DNA of 46,672 bases from a virus. Position numbers and translations under genes: made by a program. The notes under the pieces are model-generated. The model searched no databases and had not been told where the DNA came from. It saw only the letters and a list, made by a program, of their open reading frames with translations. This document shows, piece after piece, positions 16,165 to 40,304 of the stretch (position 1 is its first letter; each line of letters begins with the position of its first letter). The DNA is taken from positions 1-46,672 of the IMG/VR virus record IMGVR_UViG_3300034190_004734; one strand, written 5' to 3'.

Positions 16165-16183
16165 TATATTGTAATAAAACACT

Positions 16184-21438: not shown

Positions 21439-21444
21439 TTTATT

Positions 21445-22455
21445 GTGAAAAGAGCTTTAGTTTGCGGCGCCGGAGGCTTTATCGGGGGCCATTTAGTTAA
21501 ATTTTTAAAATCCAAGGGTTACTGGGTTAGAGGTGTGGACTTAAAACACAACGAATTCCACAATGTTGCCGAACTAGCAGACGATTTTGTCATCGGTGAC
21601 TTAAGAAATCCAGAAGTAGTCGCTTCTGTTGTTGATGGTCAGGTGGAAGAAATATATCAGTTAGCTGCAGACATGGGCGGCGCTGGGTTTGTGTTTACAG
21701 GCGAAAATGATGCTGATATTATGCATAATTCTGCTTTAATCAATCTAAATATAGCACACGAGGCAGCCAAAAAAAATGTAAAAAGAATATTTTATTCCTC
21801 CTCTGCATGCATGTATCCTGAGCACAATCAATTAGACCCAGATAATCCAAACTGTGTAGAAGACTCTGCGTACCCAGCGAATCCAGATTCTGAGTATGGC
21901 TGGGAAAAACTTTTTTCGGAAAGGCTTTACCTTTCGTTTATGAGGAACAAAGGCATAGAAGTAAGAATTGCTCGCTATCATAATATATTTGGTCCTTTTG
22001 GCACCTGGGAAGGCGGCCGAGAAAAAGCGCCCGCCGCTTTTTGTAGAAAAGTCGCTGAGTGCGCCGACGGCGACTCTGTGGAGGTCTGGGGCCCGGGCTC
22101 TCAAACAAGATCTTTTTTGTATGTCGACGAGTGTGTAGAAGCGACTTATCGACTAATGCAGTCTGATTTTTCTGGACCTGTAAATATTGGGTCTGAAGAG
22201 ATGATTTCCATCAATGATTTTGCAAAAATGGCAATTGATATTTCTGGTAAAGATGTATCAATTCACAATATTGACGGAAAAGAGTTTGAAGACAAGTATG
22301 GCCATAAGTGCCCAATTGGAGTCAATGGAAGAAACTCTGACAATAAATTATACAAAGAAAAAATAGGCTGGGTTGTTTCACAGCCACTTCGCGAAGGAAT
22401 GGAAAAAACGTTTTTGTGGATTCAAAAACAAGTTGAAGCAAAAGATAATGGCTAG
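21445..22455 (+). CDS. GDP-mannose 3,5-epimerase (plant GME-like)
   Basis: It starts RALVCGAGGFIGGHLVKFL. The middle carries GME-specific blocks: LAADMGGAGFVFTGENDADI, SSSACMYPE with the catalytic Cys122, the YGWEK pair Tyr151/Lys155, and RYHNIFGPFGTWEGGREKAP with Lys194. TRSFLYVDECVEATYRL, PVNIGSEEMISI and GVNGRNSDN follow, as in plant enzymes. GME converts GDP-mannose to GDP-L-galactose, with GDP-L-gulose as side product. 336 aa, complete. It could supply the GDP-L-sugar for the GT11-like transferase, or act on the GMD product. The GTG start is backed by AGGAG. The 3' end overlaps the next gene by 8 bases. Confidence 0.94.
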   Translation: MKRALVCGAGGFIGGHLVKFLKSKGYWVRGVDLKHNEFHNVAELADDFVIGDLRNPEVVASVVDGQVEEIYQLAADMGGAGFVFTGENDADIMHNSALINLNIAHEAAKKNVKRIFYSSSACMYPEHNQLDPDNPNCVEDSAYPANPDSEYGWEKLFSERLYLSFMRNKGIEVRIARYHNIFGPFGTWEGGREKAPAAFCRKVAECADGDSVEVWGPGSQTRSFLYVDECVEATYRLMQSDFSGPVNIGSEEMISINDFAKMAIDISGKDVSIHNIDGKEFEDKYGHKCPIGVNGRNSDNKLYKEKIGWVVSQPLREGMEKTFLWIQKQVEAKDNG

Positions 22456-23791: not shown

Positions 23792-24146
23792 AATAGTAGT
23801 TCTTACATCACTAGTCCTTAATGGCATATTATTAATGGTTTTATTCGGTATTTTACCTTTTTTGTTTTATGTTAGTGTTTTGCTAAATTTAGGCATGTTG
23901 TGGTTTGTCTTTACGATGGTGTCGAAAAATGCGCAACTTGAAGAAGATATTATAAATATCGTAGAAAAAATAGAAGATTTTTCTAGTCATATTGACGAAA
24001 TACATGGTCTAGAAATGTACTATGGTGACGAAGATCTGCAGGGCATGATTGATCACTCAAGACGCCTAATTAATGATTTCATAGATTTTCAGGCCGAGTA
24101 CTTTGACGTAGAAATAGAAGAGCCGGATGAGGAAGAAGAGAACTAG
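23784..24146 (+). CDS. Small membrane protein with cytoplasmic-type acidic tail, 120 aa
   Basis: Residues ~4-46 are hydrophobic and fit two closely spaced membrane helices (VVLTSLVLNGILLMVLFGI and the following LPFLFYVSVLLNLGMLWFV). A charged, probably coiled region follows: LEEDIINIVEKIEDF, then a conserved-looking MYYGDEDLQGMIDHSRRL and a tail rich in Glu. Similar proteins are found next to gp55 in marine T4-like phages, with unknown function. Its last 20 bases overlap the sigma gene. No holin test can be made from sequence alone, though the size would allow one. Confidence 0.78.
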   Translation: MNKIVVLTSLVLNGILLMVLFGILPFLFYVSVLLNLGMLWFVFTMVSKNAQLEEDIINIVEKIEDFSSHIDEIHGLEMYYGDEDLQGMIDHSRRLINDFIDFQAEYFDVEIEEPDEEEEN

Positions 24147-24816
24147 AAAAAAGAATACGTATTTTACTAAAGTTCATGAGGAGGCAATAATACAATATGC
24201 GTCGACAAATGACAAGCAAGTAAGAACAACGCTGTATATAGAGTTAATTGAACCGGCTTTCAATGAGCTAGTTGATAAAATAGTATACACTTATAAGTTT
24301 AACACGCTTCCAAACATTGATTATTTGAAGGATGACTGCAAACTATGGCTAATAACCATACTTGACAAGTACGACCCAGAGAGAAAATCAAAGGCCTTTT
24401 CTTATTTTAGTGTCATCACAAAAAATTGGTTTATTCACAAAGTAAAACAAAACGCTAAAAGACTAAAGAGAGATGTACAATATGAAGACATAAATAGCGC
24501 CGAAATAAATGATATCTTGGTGACCCACCACACTTATGAAAGCGACAGAGAAAACCATGAGTTTTGGCAACATCTTTTTGCTGAGATTGACAGTTGGGAA
24601 AATTTAAAACTAAAAGACAACGAAAAGAAAGTACTAGAAGCCATTCGCATCCTTTTTAATAGCATCGATGAAGTTGAAATTTTTAATAAAAAAGCTATTT
24701 ACTTGTACATGAGAGAGATCACTGGCTTGAATACGAAACAAATAGTTAATAATTTGAATCGTATGAGGGAAAGATATAGGAATTTTAAAAAGCAATGGGA
24801 AAAGGGAAGCGTTTAA
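24127..24816 (+). CDS. Late transcription sigma factor (T4 gp55-like)
   Basis: A compact sigma factor of 229 aa. After a basic N-terminus (RKKRTRKKNTYFTKVHEEAI), residues 44-60 read AFNELVDKIVYTYKFNT. Residues 83-105, from DPERKSKAFSYF through SVITKNWFIHK, correspond to the sigma region 2 core-binding and melting segment. A C-terminal helical part, GLNTKQIVNNLNRMRERYRNF, could contact DNA or the sliding clamp. T4 gp55 directs host RNA polymerase to late (TATAAATA-type) promoters together with gp33 and gp45. Its place just before the virion genes fits. It overlaps the genes on both sides. Confidence 0.85.
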   Translation: MRKKRTRKKNTYFTKVHEEAIIQYASTNDKQVRTTLYIELIEPAFNELVDKIVYTYKFNTLPNIDYLKDDCKLWLITILDKYDPERKSKAFSYFSVITKNWFIHKVKQNAKRLKRDVQYEDINSAEINDILVTHHTYESDRENHEFWQHLFAEIDSWENLKLKDNEKKVLEAIRILFNSIDEVEIFNKKAIYLYMREITGLNTKQIVNNLNRMRERYRNFKKQWEKGSV

Positions 24817-25103
24817 ATTCAGACCAGTTTGTAGAAGAGGCTATTGATAATGTCAGAAGTGACAGAGCGATGGCCTCTACACTTCTGGTAGAGTTGATGA
24901 AGATACTAAAACAAGATGAAACAAAGCACCAGTATTCTGGCCCTGTCGCTGCAAAATATTTAGAAACCCTCCAGCGCTCAAACGAGCAGTTGGTAAAGCT
25001 AGCTAATCTCCTTAGCAAAAAAGAAACTGTTTCTTCCGGGCTGACTTCACTAGAAAAATCAGACATATATGACATGATTAAGGAAGACAGTGAAGAACAG
25101 TAG
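24795..25103 (+). CDS. Small helical protein following gp55-like sigma, 102 aa
   Basis: Starts at ATG 24795 within the end of the sigma gene. The sequence is helical throughout (SDQFVEEAIDNVRSDRAMA, then VAAKYLETLQRSNEQLVKLA) and ends acidic. The overlap of 22 bases with gp55 and the size recall the late co-activator gp33 of T4, but no gp33 motif is clear. Treat as a hypothetical protein with a possible role beside gp55. The next gene follows 8 bases later with a GGGGA ribosome site. Confidence 0.72.
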   Translation: MGKGKRLNSDQFVEEAIDNVRSDRAMASTLLVELMKILKQDETKHQYSGPVAAKYLETLQRSNEQLVKLANLLSKKETVSSGLTSLEKSDIYDMIKEDSEEQ

Positions 25104-25111: not shown

Positions 25112-28100
25112 ATGGCGGAAGAAATAAAATCTAGCTGGGCTTACCACCAGAATCTACCACTAGGTGTTCTTAACAAGCTTAACAACGACATAACAAAGAA
25201 AAGAATTGACGAAGGTCAAAGCTTCTCTTCTTTGCTATCTGACGTATTTAGCTCCGTATACAACTACGACGTAAAGAGAGGCACTGGTCCTTATGCCGCT
25301 GTAGTGTTGGATGTTATAACTGGACCACAAAAAAACAATAGCGCTGCTAGTGGAGACGGACCTAATACAAAATCGTCAGATGCAGCTAGTAGGGATGTAC
25401 GAGAGGAGATCAGAAGGAAAGGCAACAAGCCTCCAGCTGTCCGTGTAATTGCAAAGATACCTGAATTTGACGCTGACATTCCATGGCCAAAAGACGATAA
25501 AGACCAAAAAAGAATTCAGCTGCATGGCGAGTTTGTGCAAATTGAAGAAAACTTACAAGGCGTCAAAGCAATTCAGCCAGGCTCAATTGTGTGGGTTCAG
25601 TATGCTAACGATGATGAGCAAGCTAGCTATAGCGGCGCCCCAACTGGCTACATCATTGGAATACACACAACTGAAGCTTTCAACGCGATTGTTAAAGTAA
25701 CGAAATCGCTAGAGTCTTTTAACCCTGCATGTCAAGCTGCACGCAACTTGTCTAGACCAGCCGGCGGCCTTTATGTCGGCAACACAGAGGAAGATCCTGC
25801 ACCAAATTTGACTGATATGAAGATAAAAAGTCATATCAAAACAGGAATATTTGGCGACGGACACGCAAGAACAAAGGTACACTTTAACCAATCTTTATTC
25901 GAATCTGATGTTTCCCACAAGCACAACATACGCGGACCTGCTCCTGGTAAAGATAATGCATTTATATGGATTGGGCACCTAAAAAACAATGGATATATGG
26001 ACATTTTAGATCGCCCAAACGACAAAGGAAGGGAGACCATCATATACGCGCCGGCAACGCTAGATTTAAACGTTCCTGTGGAAATAAAGTACTACTTTCA
26101 TGATGTTGGTGGTTTTGGTTATGCACATTTAAATGGCCCCAATACTACAATTGATGCGGCTATTGAAAATTCAGAATTACCAGGAAACGATTTTAAAGAA
26201 AAGATAGCACCAGCTATCAAGGATTTAAATGTCGACGGTAGAAATTATATTCTTGTAATTCCAGAAATGGCCTATTCTCTAGGCTATGGTACCGCGACTG
26301 GCCACACTAAAAGAGTGCAAAAGATAGTTGATGGAGAGCCAGTAGACCCCGGTGTTTTTCCCGGCAATGAAACCTCCAACATAAGAAGCAACGTTGATCC
26401 TACTTCTCGTGCTATAGTAAAGGAATATTTATCAAATGTTGACCTGGGCGGAGGAAAAAATTTAGCTCAAAATACTCCGCTAGCGCTTCGTCAATTAGTT
26501 ACGTTCGACGGATCATACACAGGTGGTAACTTTGAATTATTTCACAATGAGGTCCTCGATGTTCTAGAAGCATATATATATGCAGACGTTACGGACCGTC
26601 TAGAATTTGTTTCTTTCCTGGGCGATGGTCTTGGAGCAGTAGCCTTGGCTAGCTCACTTCAAGTCTCAGACGGAATACAAAAGGCAGTGTTTAATCCAAA
26701 TACAAATGTCAGGATAGACTTTATAACCAGCCCAGAAGCTGATTTAGTTTCAGCTTTTTACGGTGGCTATTTTGGCACGTCTGCGCCTTCAACTGTAGTA
26801 TACAATAATCTGCTATTACAAAGAGATTCGGTTGGCTATACAGAGTTTAACTATATAACTCCATCAAGCAACAATACAGAAAATTCTTTTTTTGATAATT
26901 TGGGAAAAATTGAAGATTACAAAAGAAATGTTAAAACCCCTGGAAAAGGTGCTAGCGCTAATAAATTTTCTTTTGTAATTAGCGAATCAGACTCGGATAG
27001 AAGATTTGTTAGTATGCATGTTGTGGATCGTCCCTCCGTTTCAGGCACTAAAAACAAAGTTGGCTACGCTTTCTCAATGATAAACAAAGATCTTCCAAGT
27101 TTTCCAGGATACCCAAAGAAAAACGACAAAAATTCGCAACTTAAAGCGGGGCTAAACAAGGTACCGGATCATGCTTATGCACTGGCGACGAAATCCTCAC
27201 CTAGCGATTTAGAAAGACTAACAAAGCAGCAAACAGAGCTTACGGAAACTGTTAGTTTTTTTCAAGGTGCTTTAGATAAAATACTAGCTGCATCATCTTC
27301 CGGCCTCGGTTTAGGGGGAGGATACCTCGAACTTTGTAAAGACGAGAAATACCAAATATTTTGCAACAAGTACGGCAACGTCGACCAAAATAAAAACTCC
27401 CTGTTTGACAGTGAATATAGAAAGCATCTTAATAACTTAAAAAAACTAGCTGAAATTAATATTCTCTTGCCAAAAGGATCATTCATAGAACTCATAAAAT
27501 CATCAAAGCAGGCATTAGAAGCGGAGAAAAAAGATCTCCAAGATTTACTAACAGCAGCAAAAGAAAATCTAGCTCCACCTGAAGAAGGCGAGGAGTCAAT
27601 AAGAGATGTTTGGGAAGCGCTAAATACTGGAATAGCACAGTACAACGATCGTCTCAAAAAAGCGGATATCGGCGCCGGCGTGCCAGATCTTGGATTATTG
27701 GCTGACTTTATTGTTGCTCCTGAAGCTTATACAAAATTAATTAAGAAGGTGGATTCTTTAATTGGTGTCTTTGACCCGCAAGCAGTTGCTCGACCAGCCG
27801 ATTGTGTGCCTGCTCCACAAACAGTTTCCGAAGCGCAAGCCGGTTCAGCAAATAATGCCAACGACGCGTCCTCGGGCTGTCCACCTGTTGGCCCTGAAAC
27901 TCCCACTACTTTTGCTGGACTAGCTTTCTTGTTGGGGTATGGTGATGATATTGGGACACCACCTGTAAAAGACGATTTTGAATATGTGTCCGGGGTATCA
28001 AAAGGAAAGATAAATAAAGTTCGACTACCAGAAACTTTTAAATTAGATAAATTTAATTACAGTGCACGAGGGCCAAATGGCACTATTGTTAAGAAAGAGG

Positions 28101-28912
28101 GGCCACATATTTGGGGCTGTATGACAAGAATGTTGTCTGATAAGTGGAATGAAGCCTGCGAGCAGACAAAATATTATCCATTTGCAATAACCAACGGCGT
28201 TAAAGGCCATGAGGAACCAAAGACAGCCGGCATCGCGGCGTACGAAAACGGCCTTTCCTTGCATGCACTAGGACTGGCGATCGATATAGATCCACAAATT
28301 ACGGGGTTCAGCTTTGATCCTAGAAAAGCAGTGCATAGTGTTTTCACTGGGGCTTGGAATGTTTTTGGCAACGCCTTGACTGAAGCTAAAATGACGCAAC
28401 GCGGTGTCCTTGAGGGGCTGTACAAACTGGGAGTATACCAGAAAAAAGCAGACAAACTGTACTTAAACTCTCATGAAGGCTTACAGCTCGGAGCGCGCCC
28501 TCGCTCGATAGAAAATTTTGCATCAGCTCCTGATAGCTATCTAGGAAAGACTGATACTTTTCAACCCAGAGACAGGAGGTATTTTAATATTATGACCGAC
28601 GCTCGCGGAGGCCCTATCGTTCCGATGGGAGCAAATCCTGTTAAGTGGGTTGTTTTATTTTGTGAAAAGACTGGTATGAAATGGGGCAATGGCACATTCT
28701 TGAAAAAACGATGGCGAGGCGGCAAAACATGGAATGACACCGAAAAGAAAGAAATTAGCAATTTACTGGGTGTTGAGAATGTTGTTGATCGAATACAGAA
28801 CATCTCTTGGCAAAGTGATTTAGATTCTCACGCTCATTTTCAGTACTTTGCAGGCGATGGTATTATAGCGTGGGAAGAAATAGACAAATATATTGAGGAA
28901 GAGGACCTATAA
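25112..28912 (+). CDS. Baseplate hub protein with OB-fold and C-terminal M15 peptidoglycan peptidase
   Basis: 1266 aa, several modules. (i) Residues ~105-195 look like a gp5/VgrG OB-fold: VRVIAKIPEFDADIPWP ... IQPGSIVWVQYANDD and GYIIGI. (ii) Residues ~310-560 resemble an alpha/beta-hydrolase or esterase: VPVEIKYYFHDVGG, YILVIPEMAYSLG, GGNFELFHNEVLDVLE and FLGDGLGAVALASS near 502, where the GxSxG Ser is replaced by Gly, so it may be inactive. (iii) A helical, coiled linker spans ~695-850. (iv) The last ~250 residues form an M15/VanY-like peptidase: SLHALGLAID (zinc ligands His1051 and Asp1058) and DSHAHFQYF (His1240 or His1242). T4 gp5 uses a lysozyme instead. It probably opens the cell wall during injection. 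Confidence 0.85.
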   Translation: MAEEIKSSWAYHQNLPLGVLNKLNNDITKKRIDEGQSFSSLLSDVFSSVYNYDVKRGTGPYAAVVLDVITGPQKNNSAASGDGPNTKSSDAASRDVREEIRRKGNKPPAVRVIAKIPEFDADIPWPKDDKDQKRIQLHGEFVQIEENLQGVKAIQPGSIVWVQYANDDEQASYSGAPTGYIIGIHTTEAFNAIVKVTKSLESFNPACQAARNLSRPAGGLYVGNTEEDPAPNLTDMKIKSHIKTGIFGDGHARTKVHFNQSLFESDVSHKHNIRGPAPGKDNAFIWIGHLKNNGYMDILDRPNDKGRETIIYAPATLDLNVPVEIKYYFHDVGGFGYAHLNGPNTTIDAAIENSELPGNDFKEKIAPAIKDLNVDGRNYILVIPEMAYSLGYGTATGHTKRVQKIVDGEPVDPGVFPGNETSNIRSNVDPTSRAIVKEYLSNVDLGGGKNLAQNTPLALRQLVTFDGSYTGGNFELFHNEVLDVLEAYIYADVTDRLEFVSFLGDGLGAVALASSLQVSDGIQKAVFNPNTNVRIDFITSPEADLVSAFYGGYFGTSAPSTVVYNNLLLQRDSVGYTEFNYITPSSNNTENSFFDNLGKIEDYKRNVKTPGKGASANKFSFVISESDSDRRFVSMHVVDRPSVSGTKNKVGYAFSMINKDLPSFPGYPKKNDKNSQLKAGLNKVPDHAYALATKSSPSDLERLTKQQTELTETVSFFQGALDKILAASSSGLGLGGGYLELCKDEKYQIFCNKYGNVDQNKNSLFDSEYRKHLNNLKKLAEINILLPKGSFIELIKSSKQALEAEKKDLQDLLTAAKENLAPPEEGEESIRDVWEALNTGIAQYNDRLKKADIGAGVPDLGLLADFIVAPEAYTKLIKKVDSLIGVFDPQAVARPADCVPAPQTVSEAQAGSANNANDASSGCPPVGPETPTTFAGLAFLLGYGDDIGTPPVKDDFEYVSGVSKGKINKVRLPETFKLDKFNYSARGPNGTIVKKEGPHIWGCMTRMLSDKWNEACEQTKYYPFAITNGVKGHEEPKTAGIAAYENGLSLHALGLAIDIDPQITGFSFDPRKAVHSVFTGAWNVFGNALTEAKMTQRGVLEGLYKLGVYQKKADKLYLNSHEGLQLGARPRSIENFASAPDSYLGKTDTFQPRDRRYFNIMTDARGGPIVPMGANPVKWVVLFCEKTGMKWGNGTFLKKRWRGGKTWNDTEKKEISNLLGVENVVDRIQNISWQSDLDSHAHFQYFAGDGIIAWEEIDKYIEEEDL

Positions 28913-28914: not shown

Positions 28915-30279
28915 ATGGCAACAGATGTATCAGCTAGTACGACAACAGTAGTAACTTCAAAAGGGGAACAAACGTATTATAGTTTTGATGTTGTAGATCC
29001 TGCAACTGGACAAATCAAAGAGTCGTTTAACACTACAGACCCTACGGATGCAAAAGCAAAATTTGATCAAATTAAGCAGGATTATCCTGAAGCGACGATC
29101 AACGGAGGCGAAGGTGATCCGTTTCAGGACGGCACGTTTTCGTCACAAACCGATTATGAAGTCGGCGGTTTTTCAGGCCCTACTTCTGCAGCTGGCTCTG
29201 ATGGACAGTTTAACCAAGATGATATAAGAAACTTGCCGACACCCGGATCTTCCCCGTACCAAGAAGGCGCCCCTCTGCAGGATACATCAAAGATAACTAA
29301 ATTAGCGAGGGATCGGTCTGGTTTATCGAAAAACAGAAAATATCTGGCTAATTTGAGCAGCAAGCAGCTAGCTAGAAAAAAACTTCTTGGAGTGAATGGA
29401 CAAAAGAGAATCCAAGCTCAAGTTCCAAGAGAGAAACTTTCGTGCGAAAAACAGTACGGCCCTGGCCCAGATAATAACGCATTCATTGTTATTGGTAATG
29501 ACAGGGTTGACAAAGCCAACACTGGTTACGGAGGCAAGGGCCATACGCAGTCTGACGCAATTGATATTGTGGCGGGCATGGGTGGTTTTTCACCTCAAGA
29601 AGAAGACTCCAGTGGCCGAAAAAGAAAACAAAATCCAAGCTTCTTCGTTGACGCCGCTCGCATATACGTATCACAAAAAACAGATGTTGACAAAAACTTT
29701 GGAATTGGAGAGTTTGCCAGATACGACAACACAAAGGCCATGTCTTTGATACCACCGGGTGACGAAGAGATCGGACCTTACGGAGCAAAATCTGCTGTTG
29801 CAATAAAAGCGGACAATGTAAGACTTATCGGCCGCGAAAGCATACGAATTGTTACAGGAACAGATGCTAAAAATTCTCAAGGTGGCGATGTCTTAGCAAA
29901 AAGCGGAATTGAACTAATAGCTAATAATGATATAGAATCGTTGCAGCCAATAGTTTTAGGTGATAATTTGCAGTTAGGATTAATTACTATATTGAACAAT
30001 GTCGAGGCTTTAGCTAAAATTATGCATGGATATATCAAATACCAAATGAAGTATAATCAAGCTCTTCAACAACATACACATGTTTCACCATTTTACGGAA
30101 TTACTACTTTAGCTTCAGAGCCAGCGATAATTGCTGGCATAAAATGTGACATTGAAACAGGCGCGAACACAGAGCTTTCAATTCTAAAACACATCACAAA
30201 CTTACAAGGAGTTAAGCACAACTTCTTGACTGATAGTGGTGAGAGCTTTATTAACAGTAGAAACAACAAGGCTAATTAA
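28915..30279 (+). CDS. Baseplate spike-like protein
   Basis: 454 aa, directly after the hub gene (2-base gap). The first ~140 residues are low-complexity and acidic with Gly, Pro, Gln and Ser. Residues ~185-345 are beta-rich short repeats of the kind found in gp5/VgrG-type spikes: FIVIGNDRV, HTQSDAIDIVAGMGG, FFVDAARIYVSQKT, SAVAIKADNVRLIG, ESIRIVTG and SGIELIANNDIES. A His-rich QQHTHVSPFYG near 385 could bind metal. It probably forms a trimeric needle at the end of the tail, working with the hub protein. The role is inferred from position and repeat character. Confidence 0.7.
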   Translation: MATDVSASTTTVVTSKGEQTYYSFDVVDPATGQIKESFNTTDPTDAKAKFDQIKQDYPEATINGGEGDPFQDGTFSSQTDYEVGGFSGPTSAAGSDGQFNQDDIRNLPTPGSSPYQEGAPLQDTSKITKLARDRSGLSKNRKYLANLSSKQLARKKLLGVNGQKRIQAQVPREKLSCEKQYGPGPDNNAFIVIGNDRVDKANTGYGGKGHTQSDAIDIVAGMGGFSPQEEDSSGRKRKQNPSFFVDAARIYVSQKTDVDKNFGIGEFARYDNTKAMSLIPPGDEEIGPYGAKSAVAIKADNVRLIGRESIRIVTGTDAKNSQGGDVLAKSGIELIANNDIESLQPIVLGDNLQLGLITILNNVEALAKIMHGYIKYQMKYNQALQQHTHVSPFYGITTLASEPAIIAGIKCDIETGANTELSILKHITNLQGVKHNFLTDSGESFINSRNNKAN

Positions 30280-30281: not shown

Positions 30282-33200
30282 ATGGCAAGCAAAGTCATAC
30301 CCCCTCCACCATATAGTGAAAACGAGCAAGGTGCTGCTAGCATTTTTTGTGATCCAGAGCTAGAAAGCTCTCTTTCGCTTGTTACAAATCAGAGACATTA
30401 CATTGGCCGTTTAGAGGGCGACGACGGAATATTTTCCAATCCGTATTTACCAGTCAGGCTACAGCCTGCCGAGCAGAATCTAGCTAATGGTTGGGACGAA
30501 GAGGTATTTCCGGCCATCGACGACGATGGCGATCTTGTAACAGATGCACAGGAAAAAAACAAAGTTGGCATTGAAGTGCCTCTTGGTTTTGAAATAACTG
30601 TAACAGAAATAGTGCAAAGCGAGTCTGGTACGTGGGTTGGCTTCATTTCTTTAGACCCCCGAGCAGAAGATCTGGATGACGACGTATTCGCGGATAATAC
30701 GCGCGTTTTGTATACCAAGGCCGAATATGTTAGAATAAAAGAAGTTTACCTTGGTGTTGATCCAGTTTTATCTAGCCGCTCTCAAGTGGGAGATTTGTTA
30801 GCAGAATCTGTGCAAGGCATACCTGGAACAGACACGATCTCGCCGGCAAACAGTGAAAAATGGGTGGAACTAGAGCCAGAAGACGTCAAGCGCCAGTACT
30901 TTAATTTTTATGATTATAATCAAGCCCTGGTAGAAAGAAATCAAATTCCTAGCGAAGACGATCGACCAATATATAACCTGGATACTATACAGAAATTTCA
31001 AACTCTTAAGTATTCAGAGGGCTATTTTTATTTTGTTGTTGGGTCAGCCCCTAGAAAAAGCGAGGCAGACTTAATAAACGAAAGTGGTGGTGATTTAGAA
31101 CTTTCAGAGCAGGCGCTTGAAGAAAGCAAGCTGGTCTCTTCAGAAGAAACTTATCAAACAATTCGTGATAGTGCTTGGAACAATCTTTTAGAATATTTAA
31201 ATCGACCGCGCAACATCTATCAAAATTTAAAAGATGAATATTTTATACAAGTTGCAAGAAAAGTAAACACGCAAAGCCCAGATCCAAATAACGAAAGAAT
31301 ACTATTTGCGATTAGAGCCGATTATATTGATTCTTTGCCTAAAACGCCTGTTTTTTACAAAAACAATTTTCCGGCGGGTTCACAATTTTTACAAGGCAAT
31401 AATTACGCTGTTTCTCTACCTGCTTCTGAAATTGCAAAACGCTGCAATGTAATAGTTCAAAATTTGACTCAACTTAAGCAGAGCATCGGCACCTCAAACA
31501 TTACTGTCCAAAACGCAAATCAGACAGATTACGACATCGACGCGCAGATTGATTTCGTTAAAAAAATACCAGATATTTTTAGAGAGTTTTTTCATAGACA
31601 AGCGTTCCCCCTTTCAGCCAACAAGAGTGAATTATACGAAATAATTAGAGACGCGTCTGCTGCTGTGCTTGATAAAAATATTATTCAAATTGGGGTGAAA
31701 GATAACGGCGAGTTGGGCGGCGATGTAAGAGAGACAATTTCTTATGTTCTTTTCTCTCCTGACCCTGAAAGTATTCGCCCTGCAGGCGTAAATGACAGCG
31801 AGTTTCCCCTACAATATTTTGATCCTTATGCCACCGACCCAACTCCTCGCAGCGCCATCGCTCTAGACGTTGCTCTGCCATGGCTAAGAGAGAAGTTTGA
31901 GGGTGTTTATGGCTCGCGAGCTTTGCATCTTTTGTTGTCATACGAAAGTTCCAATAAGTTTTTTGGCGCAAACGATACTGAAGAAAAATGGATGGAGTAC
32001 CTTTCAAAGTACATGGTACCGCCATTAAGAATATATCTGTCTAAACAGCTTTCTGTTGCAGAAGAACAGCTGGACTGCGATGAGATAATAACGAGACTAA
32101 ACAAGGCCGGTCCTGTGCTAACTTTCGAAGAGCGTCTTCTAGAAGAAAAGCTATACAACAGTGAAGAGTGCATGGCGCTTTACTATGAAAAATACTCCAA
32201 GTCGACCCCCGCCGTTTCTCCTGGTATGAGCAAAAGAGAACTAGAGCTAAAGGCTGAAAAAACTCAATCTGGCGGCAACATATTAGACGACCAATATGTA
32301 AAAATCTTATATACTGGGTTTTTCAATGCTCTTGACACAAACTCAATAACTTCTTTAATTATGGCATGCCTTCAGAAAAAACTGGGCATAGAGTTGACAG
32401 CAGAGGCAATATGTGAAAGGGCAATACTAAAATTAGTGTCGGCAGTTGGTACTGATTCTGTAGAAAAAACAATGCTAGCAAACGCACTATTGGCGCCTAA
32501 TTCAGAATCTAGCGTTATGTTCCTCAATGCATACAACGGAGCGCCTCCATTTGCTCCCGATACCAGTTTTAGCCCGGGCACATTTGCTAGCGATGGAACA
32601 ACCCCCGCTCAAGCGCCGCCAGAATTAGACGAAACATACAATAATGCACCAATTGCCGCGGCCATGCTAATGTCCCAGACGCGTACGCTAGCGCCCGATG
32701 AGGAAGAACGAGTTAACTTTAACGATGAGAAGTGGTGGACTGTTGAGGGTGGTGATATTCGAGTCAACACTGCGGTTATTGAAGCAACCAAGCAGTTAGA
32801 AAAAACAGGCCAAACAATTATATTTAAGCCTGGTATAAAATTTGTAGACCAGGAAAACACTAGTTTTGGACAACCAACACCAATCAAGTACACGCAACAG
32901 GAAATAGAAGCAGAGCGTACTCGACTAAAAACTTTGGGCTACACCAGCGCAGAAACTGATTCTGTGTTGGTTGCTTCTGGTTATTTGATGCCAGATCCTG
33001 ACCAAATACAAATTGTACTGGGCGACGGCCAAGCTAGCCAAACGCCAGCCGGCGGAATGACAGGACCCACAGGACTGCTTCCTTATAATTACACAGCCCA
33101 AGAAGACGCTCGTGTTGTAGAGCAAAACGCAGAGAATTGGCTTAATTATATGAAGCGAACGATTGGGCTAGCTTCCATATGCGAGCTGATTGTCGGTGAT

Positions 33201-36200
33201 ATTTTAGACGGATTACAGAACTTAATCAGGGATCCCGGCGCTTTCTTTAGTGGCGGCGGAGCCGGCTGGTGGGACAACTTTGTCGAGGGCTTAAAAAGAC
33301 AATTTTCTCCACCAGTTCCAACACTAAAGTTTCCAGATTCTTTGTTAACAGATAACCACATGGGTGACTATGGGGAAAGATTGTCCAAAACAATACTTGC
33401 CATGGTCGCTCAGATGTTAGGCCAGATTGTAAATCTGCTGCTAAAAAACGCACTTGAGCAGTGTCTAGAGGAAGATAGTGACGTTGGCACATCCGGACGA
33501 AAACCAGCCCCTGGGCCCGATGTTCCATTTCCGGTATTAGAAGCAGCCGGCCTGCCGAACATAGGCGACCTATCAAATGCAGACGTGCTGGCTTGGATAA
33601 AAGATATATTGGATAACCTATCAACTGGCCAGCTTTGCGCTCTATTAAGAGGAGACGCGACAAGAAAAACCTTACTAGCTTGCGTTTCCAGAACAAGAAA
33701 TAATTGGATTAATGTTTATCAAAATGGAGTCGACTCTCCAGAAGATATAAGGACCATTTTTCAGAAAATAGGTGAGAGCATTGATTTAGATATATGTGAT
33801 GTTATTGAATCACCAACGCTAGTAAACAATCTCTGCGAAGCTGTATACGATCGCGACGCTCGCTGCGCTGCCCTGTTGGAGTCTGGCTTGACACGCGAAG
33901 AGTGCGAAGCTCAAATTAATCAAGAAATAGAAGATTTAAGAACTCGTGTCGCAGGTACCGCAGACTTAAGCCTGTTAGACTTAAACCCACTAGCAAACAG
34001 TCTGCCTCCGATATGTGGTAACGACTTTGTAATCCCCCCAGGTGTAAAAGACACAATGGAGAGGATAACTGATAATATTTTAACAAACGTCAAGGGCTCC
34101 TTGATGATTGATCTTGAAGGTTTAAAATTCTTTTCTGATCCTCCTCGTGCCTTAAAAGCTGCAACGGATCCGGAAGAATTAAAAAAGACACATGCTGCTT
34201 TTCTACAAATAGCACAGAAGCCTTATAAAAGAAAGGCCCTTGCCTTTATTGGCGATCCTACGAACCATTATGCGATTAATAATCTTTCATCTAATCCACC
34301 ATACCCAATTTATACTTTGTGCTATAATGCTACTAAGCACAATGGCAATAAAGTTGTTGTAGACGATGAAATGCAGGAATTAATCCCTCTTCATGCCGGC
34401 CTGCTGATCAACGAACAATCAACGAACCTTACAATTGATGATATGCTTGATAAGGCTCTGCCGGCACAGAAAAAAGCAGACGTTAAAGCATACGCTGAAG
34501 CAAGAATTGGCGGTGAAAGCATTACTGCAGACACTGAAAATGTAAGACAAGAAATAATTTCAGAATACTCTAAAGATATTAAAATTAAATCGCTAGAATC
34601 CCTAACAATCGCAAGCGATCAGCTGTTTACAGCACCTTTGTTTAGGCCCATGAATAATGCGATAACAACATCTGGATTTGCGACCTACTCATACGATGAA
34701 TATAGAGGTTTAGAAGTTTCAGATAATACCAGCACTAATGTATACGCGTCGTTTCCTGGCAATTTTTCTAATCCAATCGGAGACCAAGGCCTAAGATTGA
34801 CACGACCATGGACGCTAGATACTAAATTAAAAGATATTGATAATCGTCCTTGGACTTGGTATTATATGTTGCGAGCTTATACTGGGGTTGATATAACAAT
34901 TGAAGGCGACGACACAGGAAAGCCCAGCCCACGACGCAATTTTCCTTTACATTGGCTGCAAAATTATGATTTTTGGTCCTATGACTTTAATCCTGAAGAC
35001 CCTGATAGTTTATATGCCGGCACCGACTTTGACCCGTATAATGTTGTATCCGACGGCGACCCCCCTACTAAGTTAACTGGCTGGTGGCTCTTGTACACCG
35101 CATCCCCTGGCCTACGCAATTTAGTAAAAATAGCGCAGCGAATAGTCAGGGAATCTGGTTCGACCCCGTTTAAAAGAAAAGATGCAAACGGCAAAGAATT
35201 CCAATTTAATTTGGCGATCGCTTTTATGGAACTTACTTTGGCTGAAGCGACCGGCCTTGAAAGTGCAAGATTGCAAGAACTTTATCCTAATTTACAAGAT
35301 TATGTTTCTAATCCTGAAAATGGAGTGATACTAAGTGTTTACAAAAATCCAAAAGTAAGTGTGGTAAAGTACACGACGAAGCTCCTCTACGCGGCGGAAG
35401 CCGCCGGCGGCAACGAGCTCCTTGAGCTCTTTGTGGCCCTCGACAGCGGAGATTCTTCCTTGTGGAATCAATTTTTAGAACTAAAAACAGAAGAAATATC
35501 AAAAGAGTCTCAAAGGTGGGGCTCGTACGACTTTTATTATCCTCACTTTCTAGTTTTTGATAGATATTTTAGAGACCCGGAAAGTCAACTAAACGCTCCT
35601 CCGCAAGAAATAATTGAAGCTTTTTCCAGCGCAGGACAGAAAGTTAATCAAGAGTTATACGATTACTTAAGCTTTATACCAGAAAGTCTTTTGCCGCAAT
35701 CATTAAGAGCAGCGACAGACCAAAGCACCTCGCAGCTGATTAACGATGATATAGATAAAATTATTAATTCTGCGCAATATAATCCAAATATTTTAAAATA
35801 TGAGCTTCCTTCTCAAGTCTCTAGTGTAAAGCTTTTTGGTAGCGAATCAACTTCGCAACAAATACAAGATGTTATCAATGGAGTAGACCCAGGTGCACAA
35901 GTAGCAACGTTAGCAGACCAAATAGATACAACGAATGTAGAAAAAAGCCTGATACATCAAAACATATTAACTCCTTTAGGGGAAAATGAAAATGTCCAAG
36001 CTAGTCTTATAAGAAACGTATCTAAACTCATTAAGGGCACAGTTACTCCATTTCCAGAATATCCAGTTATAGATCCTGAAATTTTGGGGGTAATCGAAGA
36101 GGTTAGTGTTAATGATCTGACTCCGGAAGAAATGATTACTTTAATTAACAAGCAAGACAAATACGCTGCTGGTCTAGAAAAAGATATTCTAGACTCCGAG

Positions 36201-39200
36201 GAGCTTGATGCTATTGAAGTTACGTTCGGGGGCGTCGATACTATAACCGTGTTTAATATACAAAAAATTCTTGAAATTGCAGAAGATCCTGCTATGTGGA
36301 TAGCTCAGCAAGAAGATGTAGTATTAGCAGCAGAAATGCAGAGCTATCTTATGGGCAGTCCAACAAATTTTGATATAACTAAGTTGGATGATTTTAAAAA
36401 ACAAAGTGATTTTCTTAAGTTTTTGAAATTCTTTAATGATTCCTATTATGAAGCTGTTAATCTTCCCTCAATAATTCTTACTGATACGCAAGCTGAAAAT
36501 CTAATTAAACAGTTAATTGACCAGCCAGAAAATATTGGCGCCCTTATTTTAGATGAAAGCAGCGCTGTGTATCTACCAGCAGATCTTCCAGTACCTCCGC
36601 ATTCTGTTGTTGGTGATGACAGGATTACAAACCAGGTATACAATTTTAATTTTGCCGGCCGCCTAGCGCCCGATGTCCATAAGATAATTGAAGGCCTCTA
36701 CACAAATGACATATCTCTTAACGCTTCATTTGCTAGCGATTACGCTAGTTTATATAGCGATACAGTTCTAGACCAGCAAAACTACAAAGCCCAAATATTT
36801 GGTCAATTTTTAGCTAATAAGCTTGATGATAAGCTAGCGGAACATTCTATTGAGCTAGGGCAAGAAAACCTTAATGATATTAAGAAATTTTTAGCAGTTG
36901 AAGGCTTTTCAGCCTTACAGTATGCCTACTCCACGCAGATGTTTGCAAAGATGAAGTCTTCCAGAATCCAGAATCGTGGATATATGAAGAAAATTTGGAA
37001 AAAAATTCTAAAAAGCCCATTAGTAAGTGACGGCACTGATCCTAGGTGCGAAGCTGTTTTGGCTAAAGCTGGAATTCCCAGCGATGCCTTATCACAAAAC
37101 ACAGAAACAGACTTCTTTAAGGTCGACCGAGTAAAATCTAAAATTATTGAATTCTACGAAAAATCACTTTGTAAAGATGTGTATGAAACAAACCTGCAGG
37201 GCCAAAATGCTACTCGCGTTTCTTTACTAGAGGGTATGGTAAAGCTAGTTGTTAAGATTTACACCCTTGAGATGTGCCTAGCTTCAGTAATAGCGTGGGA
37301 TAGTTTTGATTTGGAAGATGTGTTTAAAGATACATCAATGGCAGCGATCATACTTCAGAATATTTCGCAAGATTTTGACATAGAGTTTTTGTCGTTCTTT
37401 GCAACAGATATGTTAAGAAAAGAAAACAATTTGACAGATATACAGTTGCTAGAACTAAAACTTGGTGTCGACGGGGCTCCTCAAAGTAGTTTAGAATACT
37501 TAATCGGCGTCGAGGGCGAAAATATTGCCGGCATCGTAAAAAGTATGTTTGTCAACAGTTTTCCAATTAGCACCGATCTTAGAGTAAGCTTATTAAAAAA
37601 CACAGATCCAGATTATGTTGAGGACTTTGCAAGAGAAGTTGCCAACCCTTCAGAGTATAACACCGAATTTATTGCTCAAGCCGGCGCATTAACAGGCAGT
37701 ACTGGCCCTCTAGAGATAATTTCTGACGTCAAGATGCCAGACAATATATATACAATGAATTTTGGCTCGGGAAGAAAAAATGAATACGCCGGAATAAGCT
37801 CAGGCATGAATTTTTCTTATGATAAAAATGAAGTGGATGTTTTTGGCCTCTCGGCAGAGCGAGGAGCCAGGTCTCAAAATAATAAAAACTATTTTCATTC
37901 TCTTCCAATGAATTGGTATCACGAACATGCGCCCTACAATTACAATGATTGGAAAGATAAAGCATGGAATTTAAACGCGTCTAATACGCTGTACACTGGA
38001 GAAGGTTTTGCTAGCTTTGTAAATCTTCAAAACACTCTTTTTGGAAGATCGGACGGCTTTTCTTTTGACAACAACGTAGAGACGTCGCATGGCAACAATA
38101 TTAACAGAGTGCTTGGCAATATTGTTTTTGAGCCTTATGTAAAAATTGAAGATTGGGGCGAAGAAGAAAGAGATTTTGAGGCAGAAGTTTTTAGTAATCT
38201 AGACGAAAATGGTGAGCCATGTGACCAAGTTGTGTTAACAGCGGCCTATAATGTAAATGACTATCTAGACCTTATAGATGACACAATAAACACGAAAAGA
38301 AAAGAGGAAAACAACGCTTTCAGAAGTCATATATATGGTTATGTGCCGCTTTCAGCGTGGAGTTATTTTTACAACAATTATTTCTTAAAATCGCTTGAAG
38401 ACTCTCCTGCGCTAACCGCTCTTTTTGACAGCTTTGGTTTAAAGCCATTTTTCAAGAGTGTAAAATTTGGTATGCGTATGAGCTATACCACTGCAAATAC
38501 TAATCTCAACAAGCAACCACTTATCGATAATTTAGACATACAGTCAGCTACAAGCCCTCTTAAGAACGCTAAAACAATTTTAGGGCAGAGACCATATTAT
38601 GTTGAAGATGGCGCTGAGACCGTTTTGTATGAGCTACAAATTCCAATTATTGAGGTAGAAAAAGAAATTGTCTCTGTCGATTATAGCCAGTCATTTACCA
38701 TAGAAAACAGTGATTTGATACCATTTAATGAATTAGGGGTTGGTCCTGGCGGCAACCAAGAACTACACTACACAAAAAATGCACATCAGTTCTACTATGG
38801 TAAACTAGCTAATGCACTTCTGCAAGAGATAAAAAATTCAGCCGAGTTTAAACTTATGTATGATTACCTTTTCCCAATGAGAAGGTACATGGCTCTGGCT
38901 ACAATAATGGCGTCTGATGGCTTGTCAACTTTTATACCTAATCCAACTGATGTTCTGGATAGAACAAAGCAGTCATTAGCAAACATAATTGATAATATTT
39001 CTAATTCTACTGACTACAAGCACTTACCAGATCCAATTGCTAATTTGCTAGCTGAACGCGCTCTCCGAGCAGAGGCCGGCACCGGAGCAAAAGAGCCGGA
39101 TATGACAAAAGAAATCTTGAAAATTGTTCTCCGCACGCCTCTTTTGGTGCTTAAGGGATTTGTTGAGATAACAGATCCAGCGATTATTACAGCAAAGAGA

Positions 39201-39896
39201 ATTATTGATATTTCTAACGCAGTTGCATCTGCTACTTTAGCAGCGGTTAAACAAGGCGTGGCAACAGCAAAGAGAATAGTGCAGTCTGGAATCGATGCCG
39301 CTAGGCAAATACTACAGCAGCTAGAGATACAATTAAATGTGGGGATTGGTTTTGCTAAATCTGCCGCCGCTGCCCTGCCGACTGTAAAAACTCCAGACGG
39401 CGGCACTGAAAAGCTCTCTGATTATGTTATAATAGAAAATACAGGAGAAATAGAAAACTGGAAACTAGAGTTAGTCAGCCCACTTCCGCCTGGCATGTCC
39501 GACGAACAAAACGATCAGTGGGAAGAGTTTGGCATTGAATTTAAAAAACTACAAGATTTATTAGAAGAATACAAAGAGAACAAGAAAAAGCTAGATGATC
39601 TCGAAAGCAAGAAGCAAGAAATTATTCAAGAGGGCGAGATAAAAATCAAGGAAGCAGAAGAGCGGCTTAAGTCACTCTACCAATCACCTTATCTATTACC
39701 AGGGATTTGGTCTGCAATGATGCCATCTGTCATACCATACGGAGGAGGAATAAATCCATTCCCAATGCCTCTTCCATTCGTAAGCACCTTCCCGGGGATG
39801 ATTTATCTCGCTATACTATTTATAGATGCGATAGAAGAAAAAATACACGACGATATACAAAAGACTAAAGATCCAAATTGTGAGGATCAATTGTAA
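30282..39896 (+). CDS. Giant virion-type protein, 3204 aa, function unknown
   Basis: I do not recognise a family. The gene fills 9.6 kb between the spike-like gene and gp25, so a baseplate or tail role is likely. The first ~200 residues are beta-like (HYIGRLEGDDGIFSNPYLPV). Residues ~660-1250 are helical with spaced Cys-Glu motifs (AEAICERAILKL, ASICELIVGDIL, LCEAVYDRDARC, REECEAQI). A Gly-rich segment is near 970-985. Later parts are mixed, with Tyr/Asn-rich blocks near 2500-2580. The C-terminus has a coiled coil (~3075-3135, LQDLLEEYKENKKKLDDL), then a hydrophobic Pro/Met-rich stretch (~3137-3185) that might touch a membrane. No transmembrane bundle or enzyme motif is clear. A GC-rich codon patch lies at residues ~1696-1722. 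The ATG is two bases after the upstream TAA with only a weak AAGG. Confidence 0.85.
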   Translation: MASKVIPPPPYSENEQGAASIFCDPELESSLSLVTNQRHYIGRLEGDDGIFSNPYLPVRLQPAEQNLANGWDEEVFPAIDDDGDLVTDAQEKNKVGIEVPLGFEITVTEIVQSESGTWVGFISLDPRAEDLDDDVFADNTRVLYTKAEYVRIKEVYLGVDPVLSSRSQVGDLLAESVQGIPGTDTISPANSEKWVELEPEDVKRQYFNFYDYNQALVERNQIPSEDDRPIYNLDTIQKFQTLKYSEGYFYFVVGSAPRKSEADLINESGGDLELSEQALEESKLVSSEETYQTIRDSAWNNLLEYLNRPRNIYQNLKDEYFIQVARKVNTQSPDPNNERILFAIRADYIDSLPKTPVFYKNNFPAGSQFLQGNNYAVSLPASEIAKRCNVIVQNLTQLKQSIGTSNITVQNANQTDYDIDAQIDFVKKIPDIFREFFHRQAFPLSANKSELYEIIRDASAAVLDKNIIQIGVKDNGELGGDVRETISYVLFSPDPESIRPAGVNDSEFPLQYFDPYATDPTPRSAIALDVALPWLREKFEGVYGSRALHLLLSYESSNKFFGANDTEEKWMEYLSKYMVPPLRIYLSKQLSVAEEQLDCDEIITRLNKAGPVLTFEERLLEEKLYNSEECMALYYEKYSKSTPAVSPGMSKRELELKAEKTQSGGNILDDQYVKILYTGFFNALDTNSITSLIMACLQKKLGIELTAEAICERAILKLVSAVGTDSVEKTMLANALLAPNSESSVMFLNAYNGAPPFAPDTSFSPGTFASDGTTPAQAPPELDETYNNAPIAAAMLMSQTRTLAPDEEERVNFNDEKWWTVEGGDIRVNTAVIEATKQLEKTGQTIIFKPGIKFVDQENTSFGQPTPIKYTQQEIEAERTRLKTLGYTSAETDSVLVASGYLMPDPDQIQIVLGDGQASQTPAGGMTGPTGLLPYNYTAQEDARVVEQNAENWLNYMKRTIGLASICELIVGDILDGLQNLIRDPGAFFSGGGAGWWDNFVEGLKRQFSPPVPTLKFPDSLLTDNHMGDYGERLSKTILAMVAQMLGQIVNLLLKNALEQCLEEDSDVGTSGRKPAPGPDVPFPVLEAAGLPNIGDLSNADVLAWIKDILDNLSTGQLCALLRGDATRKTLLACVSRTRNNWINVYQNGVDSPEDIRTIFQKIGESIDLDICDVIESPTLVNNLCEAVYDRDARCAALLESGLTREECEAQINQEIEDLRTRVAGTADLSLLDLNPLANSLPPICGNDFVIPPGVKDTMERITDNILTNVKGSLMIDLEGLKFFSDPPRALKAATDPEELKKTHAAFLQIAQKPYKRKALAFIGDPTNHYAINNLSSNPPYPIYTLCYNATKHNGNKVVVDDEMQELIPLHAGLLINEQSTNLTIDDMLDKALPAQKKADVKAYAEARIGGESITADTENVRQEIISEYSKDIKIKSLESLTIASDQLFTAPLFRPMNNAITTSGFATYSYDEYRGLEVSDNTSTNVYASFPGNFSNPIGDQGLRLTRPWTLDTKLKDIDNRPWTWYYMLRAYTGVDITIEGDDTGKPSPRRNFPLHWLQNYDFWSYDFNPEDPDSLYAGTDFDPYNVVSDGDPPTKLTGWWLLYTASPGLRNLVKIAQRIVRESGSTPFKRKDANGKEFQFNLAIAFMELTLAEATGLESARLQELYPNLQDYVSNPENGVILSVYKNPKVSVVKYTTKLLYAAEAAGGNELLELFVALDSGDSSLWNQFLELKTEEISKESQRWGSYDFYYPHFLVFDRYFRDPESQLNAPPQEIIEAFSSAGQKVNQELYDYLSFIPESLLPQSLRAATDQSTSQLINDDIDKIINSAQYNPNILKYELPSQVSSVKLFGSESTSQQIQDVINGVDPGAQVATLADQIDTTNVEKSLIHQNILTPLGENENVQASLIRNVSKLIKGTVTPFPEYPVIDPEILGVIEEVSVNDLTPEEMITLINKQDKYAAGLEKDILDSEELDAIEVTFGGVDTITVFNIQKILEIAEDPAMWIAQQEDVVLAAEMQSYLMGSPTNFDITKLDDFKKQSDFLKFLKFFNDSYYEAVNLPSIILTDTQAENLIKQLIDQPENIGALILDESSAVYLPADLPVPPHSVVGDDRITNQVYNFNFAGRLAPDVHKIIEGLYTNDISLNASFASDYASLYSDTVLDQQNYKAQIFGQFLANKLDDKLAEHSIELGQENLNDIKKFLAVEGFSALQYAYSTQMFAKMKSSRIQNRGYMKKIWKKILKSPLVSDGTDPRCEAVLAKAGIPSDALSQNTETDFFKVDRVKSKIIEFYEKSLCKDVYETNLQGQNATRVSLLEGMVKLVVKIYTLEMCLASVIAWDSFDLEDVFKDTSMAAIILQNISQDFDIEFLSFFATDMLRKENNLTDIQLLELKLGVDGAPQSSLEYLIGVEGENIAGIVKSMFVNSFPISTDLRVSLLKNTDPDYVEDFAREVANPSEYNTEFIAQAGALTGSTGPLEIISDVKMPDNIYTMNFGSGRKNEYAGISSGMNFSYDKNEVDVFGLSAERGARSQNNKNYFHSLPMNWYHEHAPYNYNDWKDKAWNLNASNTLYTGEGFASFVNLQNTLFGRSDGFSFDNNVETSHGNNINRVLGNIVFEPYVKIEDWGEEERDFEAEVFSNLDENGEPCDQVVLTAAYNVNDYLDLIDDTINTKRKEENNAFRSHIYGYVPLSAWSYFYNNYFLKSLEDSPALTALFDSFGLKPFFKSVKFGMRMSYTTANTNLNKQPLIDNLDIQSATSPLKNAKTILGQRPYYVEDGAETVLYELQIPIIEVEKEIVSVDYSQSFTIENSDLIPFNELGVGPGGNQELHYTKNAHQFYYGKLANALLQEIKNSAEFKLMYDYLFPMRRYMALATIMASDGLSTFIPNPTDVLDRTKQSLANIIDNISNSTDYKHLPDPIANLLAERALRAEAGTGAKEPDMTKEILKIVLRTPLLVLKGFVEITDPAIITAKRIIDISNAVASATLAAVKQGVATAKRIVQSGIDAARQILQQLEIQLNVGIGFAKSAAAALPTVKTPDGGTEKLSDYVIIENTGEIENWKLELVSPLPPGMSDEQNDQWEEFGIEFKKLQDLLEEYKENKKKLDDLESKKQEIIQEGEIKIKEAEERLKSLYQSPYLLPGIWSAMMPSVIPYGGGINPFPMPLPFVSTFPGMIYLAILFIDAIEEKIHDDIQKTKDPNCEDQL
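35367..35450. other. Short GC-rich, palindrome-dense patch inside the giant gene
   Basis: Bases 35371-35450 hold 53 G or C of 80 (about 66%) in a gene that is mostly AT-rich. Five of six Leu codons are CTC and Ala is GCG/GCC, unlike the TTA/CTA/GCT/GCA use on both sides. It contains the 12-base perfect palindrome GCCGCCGGCGGC (35400-35411), the inverted repeat GAGCTC-CTT-GAGCTC (35415-35429) and GCGGC-GGAA-GCCGC (35391-35404), a stem with a GNRA-type loop. The reading frame stays open. Confidence 0.75.
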
Positions 39897-39908: not shown

Positions 39909-40304
39909 ATGAACGGTATTGGACCAAAATTACCGCTGCAAAGAGACGATGTATACGGAAACTATACCCTAATTTCTAGCTATGCTGAAGAAATAAAGCA
40001 AAATTTTAAAAATCTACTCTTGACTGCCCCTGGCGAAAGAATGATGAACCCGGACTTTGGTGTTGGCTTAAGAAATTTTCTTTTTGAGCCAGAGCAAAGA
40101 GTCTCTGGTATGATACGGCAAAGAATAACAAATCAGGCAAGCAAGTATATGCCGTTTATTAGAATCAACAAAATACTCTTTAATCATGGGATTGATCCAA
40201 AAGATTCAGTAGACTCTAATGTTCTTTCAATAATTATCGAGTTTGACGTTCCCAGCATGAACTTGCAAACTGAAATACAAATACAAGCCGAGGATGTTAA
40301 CTAA
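39909..40304 (+). CDS. Baseplate wedge protein, T4 gp25-like (GPW/gp25 family)
   Basis: 131 aa. The family core NFKNLLLTAPGERMMNPDFGVGLRNFLFEP (residues ~33-62) is the classic gp25/GPW signature (LLT-PGER-M-P-FG-GL---LFEP). It is followed by IRQRITNQASKYMPFIRINKI and the beta ending IIIEFDVP. In T4, gp25 is a baseplate wedge piece that joins gp6 and resembles a sheath-like initiator. The length is normal. It is followed directly by the gp6-like gene, with its TAA touching the next ATG. Confidence 0.94.
   Translation: MNGIGPKLPLQRDDVYGNYTLISSYAEEIKQNFKNLLLTAPGERMMNPDFGVGLRNFLFEPEQRVSGMIRQRITNQASKYMPFIRINKILFNHGIDPKDSVDSNVLSIIIEFDVPSMNLQTEIQIQAEDVN

Follow-up and report, generated by a model that had tools for sequence, protein, structure and literature searches.

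The gene analysed here lies in the IMG/VR virus record IMGVR_UViG_3300034190_004734, whose 46,672 bases are the whole stretch examined (the window), and it encodes a putative tail lysin. We consider it moderately probable that this lysin is the enzyme-bearing half of a tail tip resembling T4 gp5, in which an M15-like peptidase is joined to a conserved esterase module that appears to be dead. A previous sequence-only reading of the same DNA had called the protein a tail hub with a gp5-like OB-fold. The name hub does not fit well, the T4 hub being gp27 and the spike being encoded here by a separate gene, and gp5*-like lysin is a better description. The parts of the gene are the following, pLDDT being the predicted local distance difference test of the structural models:

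25112..28912, + strand, whole lysin open reading frame (ORF), ATG start, 1266 aa
25214..25681, + strand, OB-like N-terminal domain, about residues 35-190 (profile family of the gene place; model strands and structural matches at 53-186)
25958..27091, + strand, esterase-like module of the alpha/beta-hydrolase type, about residues 283-660 (alignment, model, fold searches)
26099..26104, + strand, oxyanion position His330-Asp331, His-Gly in four relatives (module alignment)
26621..26635, + strand, nucleophile elbow GDGLG, residues 504-508, with Gly506 where 4 of 17 aligned rows have Ser
27182..27751, + strand, linker, about residues 691-880 (helical in a low-confidence model, pLDDT mostly below 60)
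27947..28909, + strand, M15-like peptidase region, about residues 946-1266 (hhalign E 5.4e-5 with controls; conserved in the homologues L171 and L174)
28256..28285, + strand, SLHALGLAID from residue 1049, with the putative zinc ligands His1051 and Asp1058 (sequence motif)
28823..28840, + strand, DSHAHF from residue 1238, with His1240 and His1242 as HxH (sequence motif)

The ORF coordinates were confirmed, and GDGLG, SLHALGLAID, and DSHAHF, which the sequence-only reading had singled out, were located exactly at residues 504, 1049, and 1238. An alignment of the window protein with L171 and L174 matched a 22-sequence M15/VanY profile of syntenic lysins with an hhalign probability of 66% and E 5.4e-5, and nine control profiles (two reversed ones, M74, OB, hydrolase, spike, gp6, sigma-like, and single-gene spike proteins) gave E values of 0.079-0.5. 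His1051, Asp1058, His1240, and His1242 are invariant in the three homologues, which share 42-43% identity. Of 20,000 shuffled versions of the lysin, 25 contained H..G.[AS].D with H.H no more than 250 residues after it, and 425 contained the first pattern alone. The VanY/M15 assignment of the C-terminus proposed beforehand is supported by the profile match and by this invariance.

Several observations weigh against this assignment. The M15 match spans only about 80 residues around HxxGxAxD, and some 180 residues separate this motif from HxH, far more than in the aligned VanY domains. The acid found at -3 from His1242 in L171 and L174 is replaced by Ser in the window protein, where Asp stands at -4. 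The model of residues 690-1266, built from three sequences, has a pLDDT of 35.3, so that the zinc site is putative and rests on sequence, and the peptidase profile found none of the PDB sequences at E 10. An unlikely alternative is that the peptidase is also inactive or only binds, that the whole protein is structural, and that the tip pierces by force. This idea gains from the putative status of the zinc site, from phage phiCD508, reported to lack such tail enzymes in the part of the article covered (PMC11948020), and from the loss of HxH (by eye) in two proteins of the related M74 group, L181 and L182. It is opposed by the invariance of the four putative zinc-site residues in homologues of 42-43% identity and by the fact that M15-type motifs are the commonest ones at the place of the lysin gene.

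The two proteins just mentioned (L182:5194-9747 and L181:5179-9171) have an M74-like end without the HxH zinc motif, as judged by eye, and their peptidase may be dead too. M74 was also considered for the C-terminus of the window protein, on account of the M74-like ends of relatives with two module copies, and was rejected (hhalign probability 0.3%, E 0.19).

Library searches with the lysin gave little. No Pfam family scored above its cut-off, the best being M15_4 (E 0.031; 15.3 bits, the cut-off being 25), and the window protein matched no lysozyme family by Pfam at E 1, nor at E 0.01 in the tally of the gene place described below. Nothing came near a cut-off in NCBIfam, a single PHROG of unknown function was matched at E 0.33, and the PDB sequences gave no match at E 1. 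The tblastn search of 50,697 phage records found none at E 0.01, in a collection that may omit records very near the window's. Searches of the phage collection with the whole protein and with its C-terminal and middle parts yielded no relative (the four matches of the C-terminal part were at E 2-6), and neither did a search of viral contigs with the lysin protein alone. Since the lysin alone retrieved no relative in these searches, synteny anchors were needed.

Relatives of the esterase-like module indicate what the window protein has probably lost. The protein of record G003 is 42% identical over lysin residues 460-1264 and is the only match this strong in the 37 records searched; further close relatives came from alignment-based scans. 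L172 and L174 are two contigs encoding the same 1233-aa protein. A wider group has the same OB-hydrolase start with other C-terminal ends: VanY plus amidase in L033, L185, and L186 (the L033 amidase by eye, that of L186 narrowly missing the Pfam cut-off), VanY in L177, amidase in L178, and M74-like ends in nine proteins (Pfam on two, E 2.7e-4 and 0.0036, below cut-off; the others by eye). At the elbow position of the 17-row alignment Ser is found in four rows (L033, L185, L186, and L174), Gly in five (window, L171, L063, L181, and L182), Arg in four, Lys in two, and His and Asn in one each; 13 of the 17 rows thus have no Ser, Cys, or Asp there. Only L033, L185, and L186 retain Ser, Asp, and His jointly (3/17). 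Of the 16 rows covering the oxyanion position, 4 read His-Gly and the other 12, including L174, His-Asp or His-Asn. The window protein has Gly506 at the nucleophile position, His-Asp at the oxyanion position, and no His at the aligned catalytic place. A module without nucleophile had been predicted from GDGLG, and the relatives that retain Ser, Asp, and His make the loss visible; the bounds predicted with it (310-560) have to be widened to about 283-660 on the basis of the alignment and the structural match.

It is distinctly unlikely, in our opinion, that the hydrolase module is still catalytic through a nucleophile or His placed elsewhere, which would make the protein a two-enzyme lysin. L174, the nearest full-length relative, still has the elbow Ser, a His (His636, in V-S-[MF]-H-V) near the aligned place of the catalytic His is common to the window protein, L171, and L174, and the module is well conserved, all of which would suit an active enzyme. 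The elbow Gly of the window protein and L171, the change of His-Gly to His-Asp, the missing His at the aligned place, and the 13 of 17 rows with no usual nucleophile argue for the opposite.

The loss of the nucleophile is, as far as the alignment tells, not limited to the window phage. Nine M74-type proteins contain a second copy of the module (hhalign to the first copy, 99.1%, E 1.1e-18), and its elbow lacks Ser in all nine (by eye). On a tree of the module made with 16 rows, from which the elbow and Asp columns had been removed, the window protein pairs with L174 (100/99), and the non-Ser state requires three changes, at least two of them forced by well-supported branches. Shuffled elbow labels gave a mean of 3.6 changes and equally few in 162 of 500 cases, and the non-Ser label is therefore not clustered on the tree. 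The change counts and the unclustered label together suggest that the elbow Ser was probably lost more than once. Regarding the origin of the intact esterase, 23 stretches of genome contigs searched for a bacterial source fit the pattern and none encodes a relative, the search of viral contigs for more intact modules returned three loci, all on contigs already in the set, and the phage collection, searched at E 1, contained nothing matching the modules of L174 and L186.

The fold of the N-terminal half was modelled for residues 1-690 with a mean pLDDT of 49.7 (65-81 in the better core blocks). The model places a strand at 497-505, a turn at 506, and a helix at 507-518, which is the strand-elbow-helix of an alpha/beta hydrolase. 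Of the 901 PDB matches that Foldseek returned at E<=10, none reached 0.001; kynurenine formamidase (7.8e-3) and glucuronoyl esterase came first, and among the 50 Foldseek matches listed, 47 are alpha/beta hydrolases by title and recall, and the other three are M17 aminopeptidases. The best VIA match was a CE1 feruloyl esterase (Z 7.6, residues 273-660, 179 aligned, root-mean-square deviation 5.0), with no row at Z 8; values of Z 7 to 8 are common according to the warning of the tool, and families absent from the VIA list are not thereby excluded. The scores (best Foldseek E 7.8e-3, Z 7.6) are modest, which counts against the assignment, as does the only PDB sequence match of the hydrolase profile, a vapE-like protein at E 0.0058 that we have taken as chance. 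The hydrolase fold proposed earlier is supported by topology and by the kind of structural match, with modest scores, and it would rest on the agreement of these two with the relatives' elbows GHSNGG, AHSAGG, and AWSAGG. Three viral models were matched at E<=0.001, none of them named. The OB-like N-terminus, also part of the first reading, receives some support from the domain family of the gene place, by model strands at 61-184 of moderate pLDDT, and by OB matches of Z 6.5-7.2; the match to chain 8kea_D of the A-1(L) baseplate (Z 6.6) is tied with ribosomal OB folds.

Conservation suggests that the dead module is not simply decaying. Between the window protein and L174, identity is 178/309 (58%) in the hydrolase module, 61/149 (41%) in the OB domain, 60/168 (36%) in the helical part, and 130/302 (43%) in the M15 region. 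In the M74 group, comparing L063 with L045, L170, and L187, the first copy is 46% identical, the second 44-52%, and the M74 end 36-49%; in the group with intact sites, L033 against L185 and L186, the module is 35-42% and VanY 48-52% identical. Two comparisons temper this picture: against L171, which covers the module partly, the values are 61/130 (47%) for the hydrolase module and 133/298 (45%) for the M15 region, and the best conserved part of the M74 group is the OB domain (65-73%). Only in the comparison with L174 is the dead module clearly conserved beyond the other parts. Nevertheless, the module appears as conserved as the peptidase, and more so against L174, which speaks against mere decay and suggests that it has a non-catalytic job. 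Four near-identical contig pairs, with 0, 0, 2 (both synonymous), and 0 codon differences, are too alike for a selection test.

We propose that the OB-like N-terminus most likely docks the lysin in the baseplate beside the spike encoded by the next gene, and that contraction of the tail would carry the M15-like peptidase to the periplasm, as T4 gp5 does. There, judging from its family and position, the M15-like domain would hydrolyse a peptide bond in the peptidoglycan, the T4 counterpart being a muramidase. The middle module would be, according to the alignment, a former esterase of the alpha/beta-hydrolase type that no longer has its nucleophile or oxyanion glycine and in which no catalytic His could be identified; being conserved, it is probably kept as a structural, binding, or gating part. 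With lysin and spike as separate genes, a maturation cut of the T4 type would be unnecessary. It should be held against this proposal that we infer the presence of the lysin in the virion.

The surroundings of the gene in the window are those of a baseplate:

24127..24816, + strand, late-sigma-like gene, synteny anchor (phrog_234 E 7.7e-4, alignment)
24795..25103, + strand, 102-aa gene preceding the lysin gene (present at the same place in many relatives)
28915..30279, + strand, spike gene, 454 aa (homologous to the C-terminal part of single-gene proteins of this place)
30282..39896, + strand, 3204-aa gene between spike and gp25 (one weak PHROG of unknown function)
39909..40304, + strand, gp25 baseplate wedge (Pfam GPW_gp25 E 4.5e-12)
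40305..42101, + strand, gp6-like baseplate wedge (phrog_219 E 9e-19, tblastn)

The frame from the sigma-like gene to gp25/gp6 is common to Microcystis phage Mel-JY01, Flavobacterium phage immuto, and the uncultured phage LR756508, with anchors 25-34% identical. Sigma-like and gp6 alignments, scanned against viral contigs, retrieved at least 160 loci (at least 80 per anchor), many of which can be read in the order sigma-like gene, gene of about 100 aa, variable gene, spike of about 320 aa, long gene, gp25, and gp6. A tblastn search with the lysin matched 2 of 165 syntenic loci, and the window spike was matched downstream in 91 of the 106 loci with a sigma-like gene (phmmer, E<1e-3). In other phages, single-gene proteins occupy the same place, and it is their C-terminal part that the spike family matches (hhalign 97.6%, E 2.6e-12); the OB-domain profile does not match the N-terminus of those single-gene spike proteins (hhalign probability 0.3%). 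A split of one ancestral gp5 into lysin and spike thus has support from these comparisons on the spike side only. The spikes of the window and of L010 had no match in the phage collection at E 0.01, and therefore the phage group seems to be uncultivated. L032:10709 seemed to join the two, but its profile match carries no weight, the sequence itself being in the seed alignment.

The 3204-aa ORF has no Pfam match at E 0.05, and long genes of other lengths occupy its place in relatives. Upstream of the tail genes, positions 5081-22455 of the window encode glycosyltransferases, a UDP-glucose dehydrogenase, and nucleotide-sugar epimerases.

The place of the lysin gene was studied in an alignment of 95 ORFs, the window's and 94 from 85 other loci, from which eight near-copies had been removed and one 157-aa ORF excluded, and to which four ORFs from loci with an unrecognised spike were added manually. 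A profile of the N-terminal domain, seeded with 20 sequences and run for four rounds, matches 80 of the 94 other ORFs (E<0.01), or 70 of the 84 outside the seed. Among the 599 ORFs searched it matches lysin genes only, except for the seeded L032 spike gene. The 14 unmatched ORFs include four M23 and two Amidase_2 proteins as well as L083:9700, which is COX2 and not a lysin. This gene (L083:9700-10704) encodes a cytochrome c oxidase subunit II to which a cytochrome c domain is fused (COX2 E 6.7e-20, Cytochrom_C E 1.9e-8), and it sits between the sigma-like and lysin genes of a viral contig. That the window protein might be a free lysis enzyme or depolymerase placed among baseplate genes by chance is highly improbable, for although endolysins and depolymerases can have peptidase and esterase modules too, its gene lies inside the baseplate run, adjoins the spike gene, and carries the N-terminal domain characteristic of the place (80 of 94 other ORFs).

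A Pfam tally of the 95 ORFs at E<=0.01, in which one member may count in several families, gave VanY in 21, M23 in 12, Amidase_2 in 7, M15_4 in 7, and Phage_lysozyme2 in 5; M15_3, a tyrosine-phosphatase-like family, and DUF5715 were found in two each, and Phage_lysozyme, SLT, GDSL lipase, M15_2, M74, DUF2272, and some others, among them Tubulin and the families of the COX2 gene, in one each. The window lysin has no Pfam family at this threshold. HxxGxxxD occurs in 38 of the 95 ORFs against a mean of 3.9 and a maximum of 10 in 200 rounds of shuffling. The tally and this excess indicate that, at the level of predicted domains, a single N-terminal domain is combined with many wall hydrolases, the M15 type being the commonest. 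One of the 95 ORFs matches Pfam Tubulin (E 5.5e-7). Tandem arrays of two or three lysin genes, each with the N-terminal domain, were seen at 5 of the 86 sampled loci:

L019:1262-5189 and L044:9952-13947, tandem lysins, three genes
L021:4377-7592, L046:4863-8077, and L057:9958-12710, tandem lysins, two genes

Their modules differ where they can be named: in L057 a phosphatase-like module (below cut-off) stands beside Phage_lysozyme2, and in L044 a VanY lysin lies between two lysins without a nameable module. The tyrosine-phosphatase-like motif HCTHGADRT is present in the lysin-place proteins L046:4863-6602 and L057:9958-11454, the Pfam matches being below the cut-offs.

A broader scenario, which we put forward as tentative and rather doubtful, is that a tail-tip esterase became a pseudoenzyme repeatedly in uncultivated myophages and was kept as a binding or gating domain serving the adjacent peptidase, with lysin and spike as separate genes, and with the tips of tandem-lysin phages being hetero-oligomers with different enzymes; the hetero-oligomeric tip is a reading of those loci and not a result. 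What appears valuable in this system is that, within a phage group that seems uncultivated, one N-terminal domain is found joined to widely differing wall-cutting modules, and that dead and apparently intact versions of one esterase occur at the same place, which allows asking what use a tail tip makes of a dead enzyme. It also links entry enzymes to the wall chemistry of hosts not yet known.

A peptidase in a tail tip is already known, as are multi-enzyme tail hubs such as that of A-1(L). What would be new is the peptidase accompanied by a conserved dead esterase, together with the set of modules behind one N-terminal domain, a combination not found in searches of the open-licence PMC literature; among the papers listed there, none mentions a dead esterase in a phage tail lysin, as judged from titles and the starts of abstracts. 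With respect to single modules, CE1 feruloyl and glucuronoyl esterases and kynurenine formamidase resemble window residues of about 248-660 as best structural matches and in elbow topology, but the window module lacks the nucleophile and the oxyanion Gly and matches no named family above cut-off. VanY and other M15 peptidases share HxxGxAxD and HxH with the window protein (profile E 5.4e-5), which differs in having about 180 residues between the motifs and a Pfam M15_4 score below cut-off. VgrG2b, of the type VI secretion system (T6SS), is a metallopeptidase.

The papers cited below were covered in part, and the comparisons apply to those parts. T6SS VgrG proteins with C-terminal effectors, such as VgrG2b, are likewise spike-type proteins with an enzyme fused C-terminally, but serve as secretion-system effectors and not as phage entry lysins (PMC6899460). 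The gp5 of pelagimyophages and cyanomyophages is reported to be much more divergent than VrlC, and the authors assume adaptation to the host wall; the part covered names no enzyme classes or pseudoenzyme (PMC7029224). In a comparison of T4-like cyanophages, gp5 serves only as a landmark (PMC3037559). Closer is the Anabaena myophage A-1(L), whose hub gp15 is also a tail-tip protein with several hydrolase domains, i.e., lysozyme, endoglucanase, and peptidase, the last two being reported as active on Anabaena cells (PMC10966104). There, however, the enzymes are carried by the barrel hub gp15 and the OB fold by a separate spike, gp25, whereas in the window the enzymes follow the OB-like domain; the part of that article covered describes no esterase-like module. 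Finally, T4 gp5 begins with an OB domain and continues into a wall hydrolase, an order that the window lysin, with its OB-like domain and putative peptidase, appears to share, as it does the neighbouring spike and the baseplate gene set (PMC3004832). T4 gp5 is made as one chain that is cut between Ser351 and Ala352, its lysozyme having 10% activity while gp5C is attached (PMC3004832), and it thus differs in having a muramidase within one cleaved chain, where the window has a putative M15-like peptidase after an apparently dead esterase and a spike encoded by a gene of its own.

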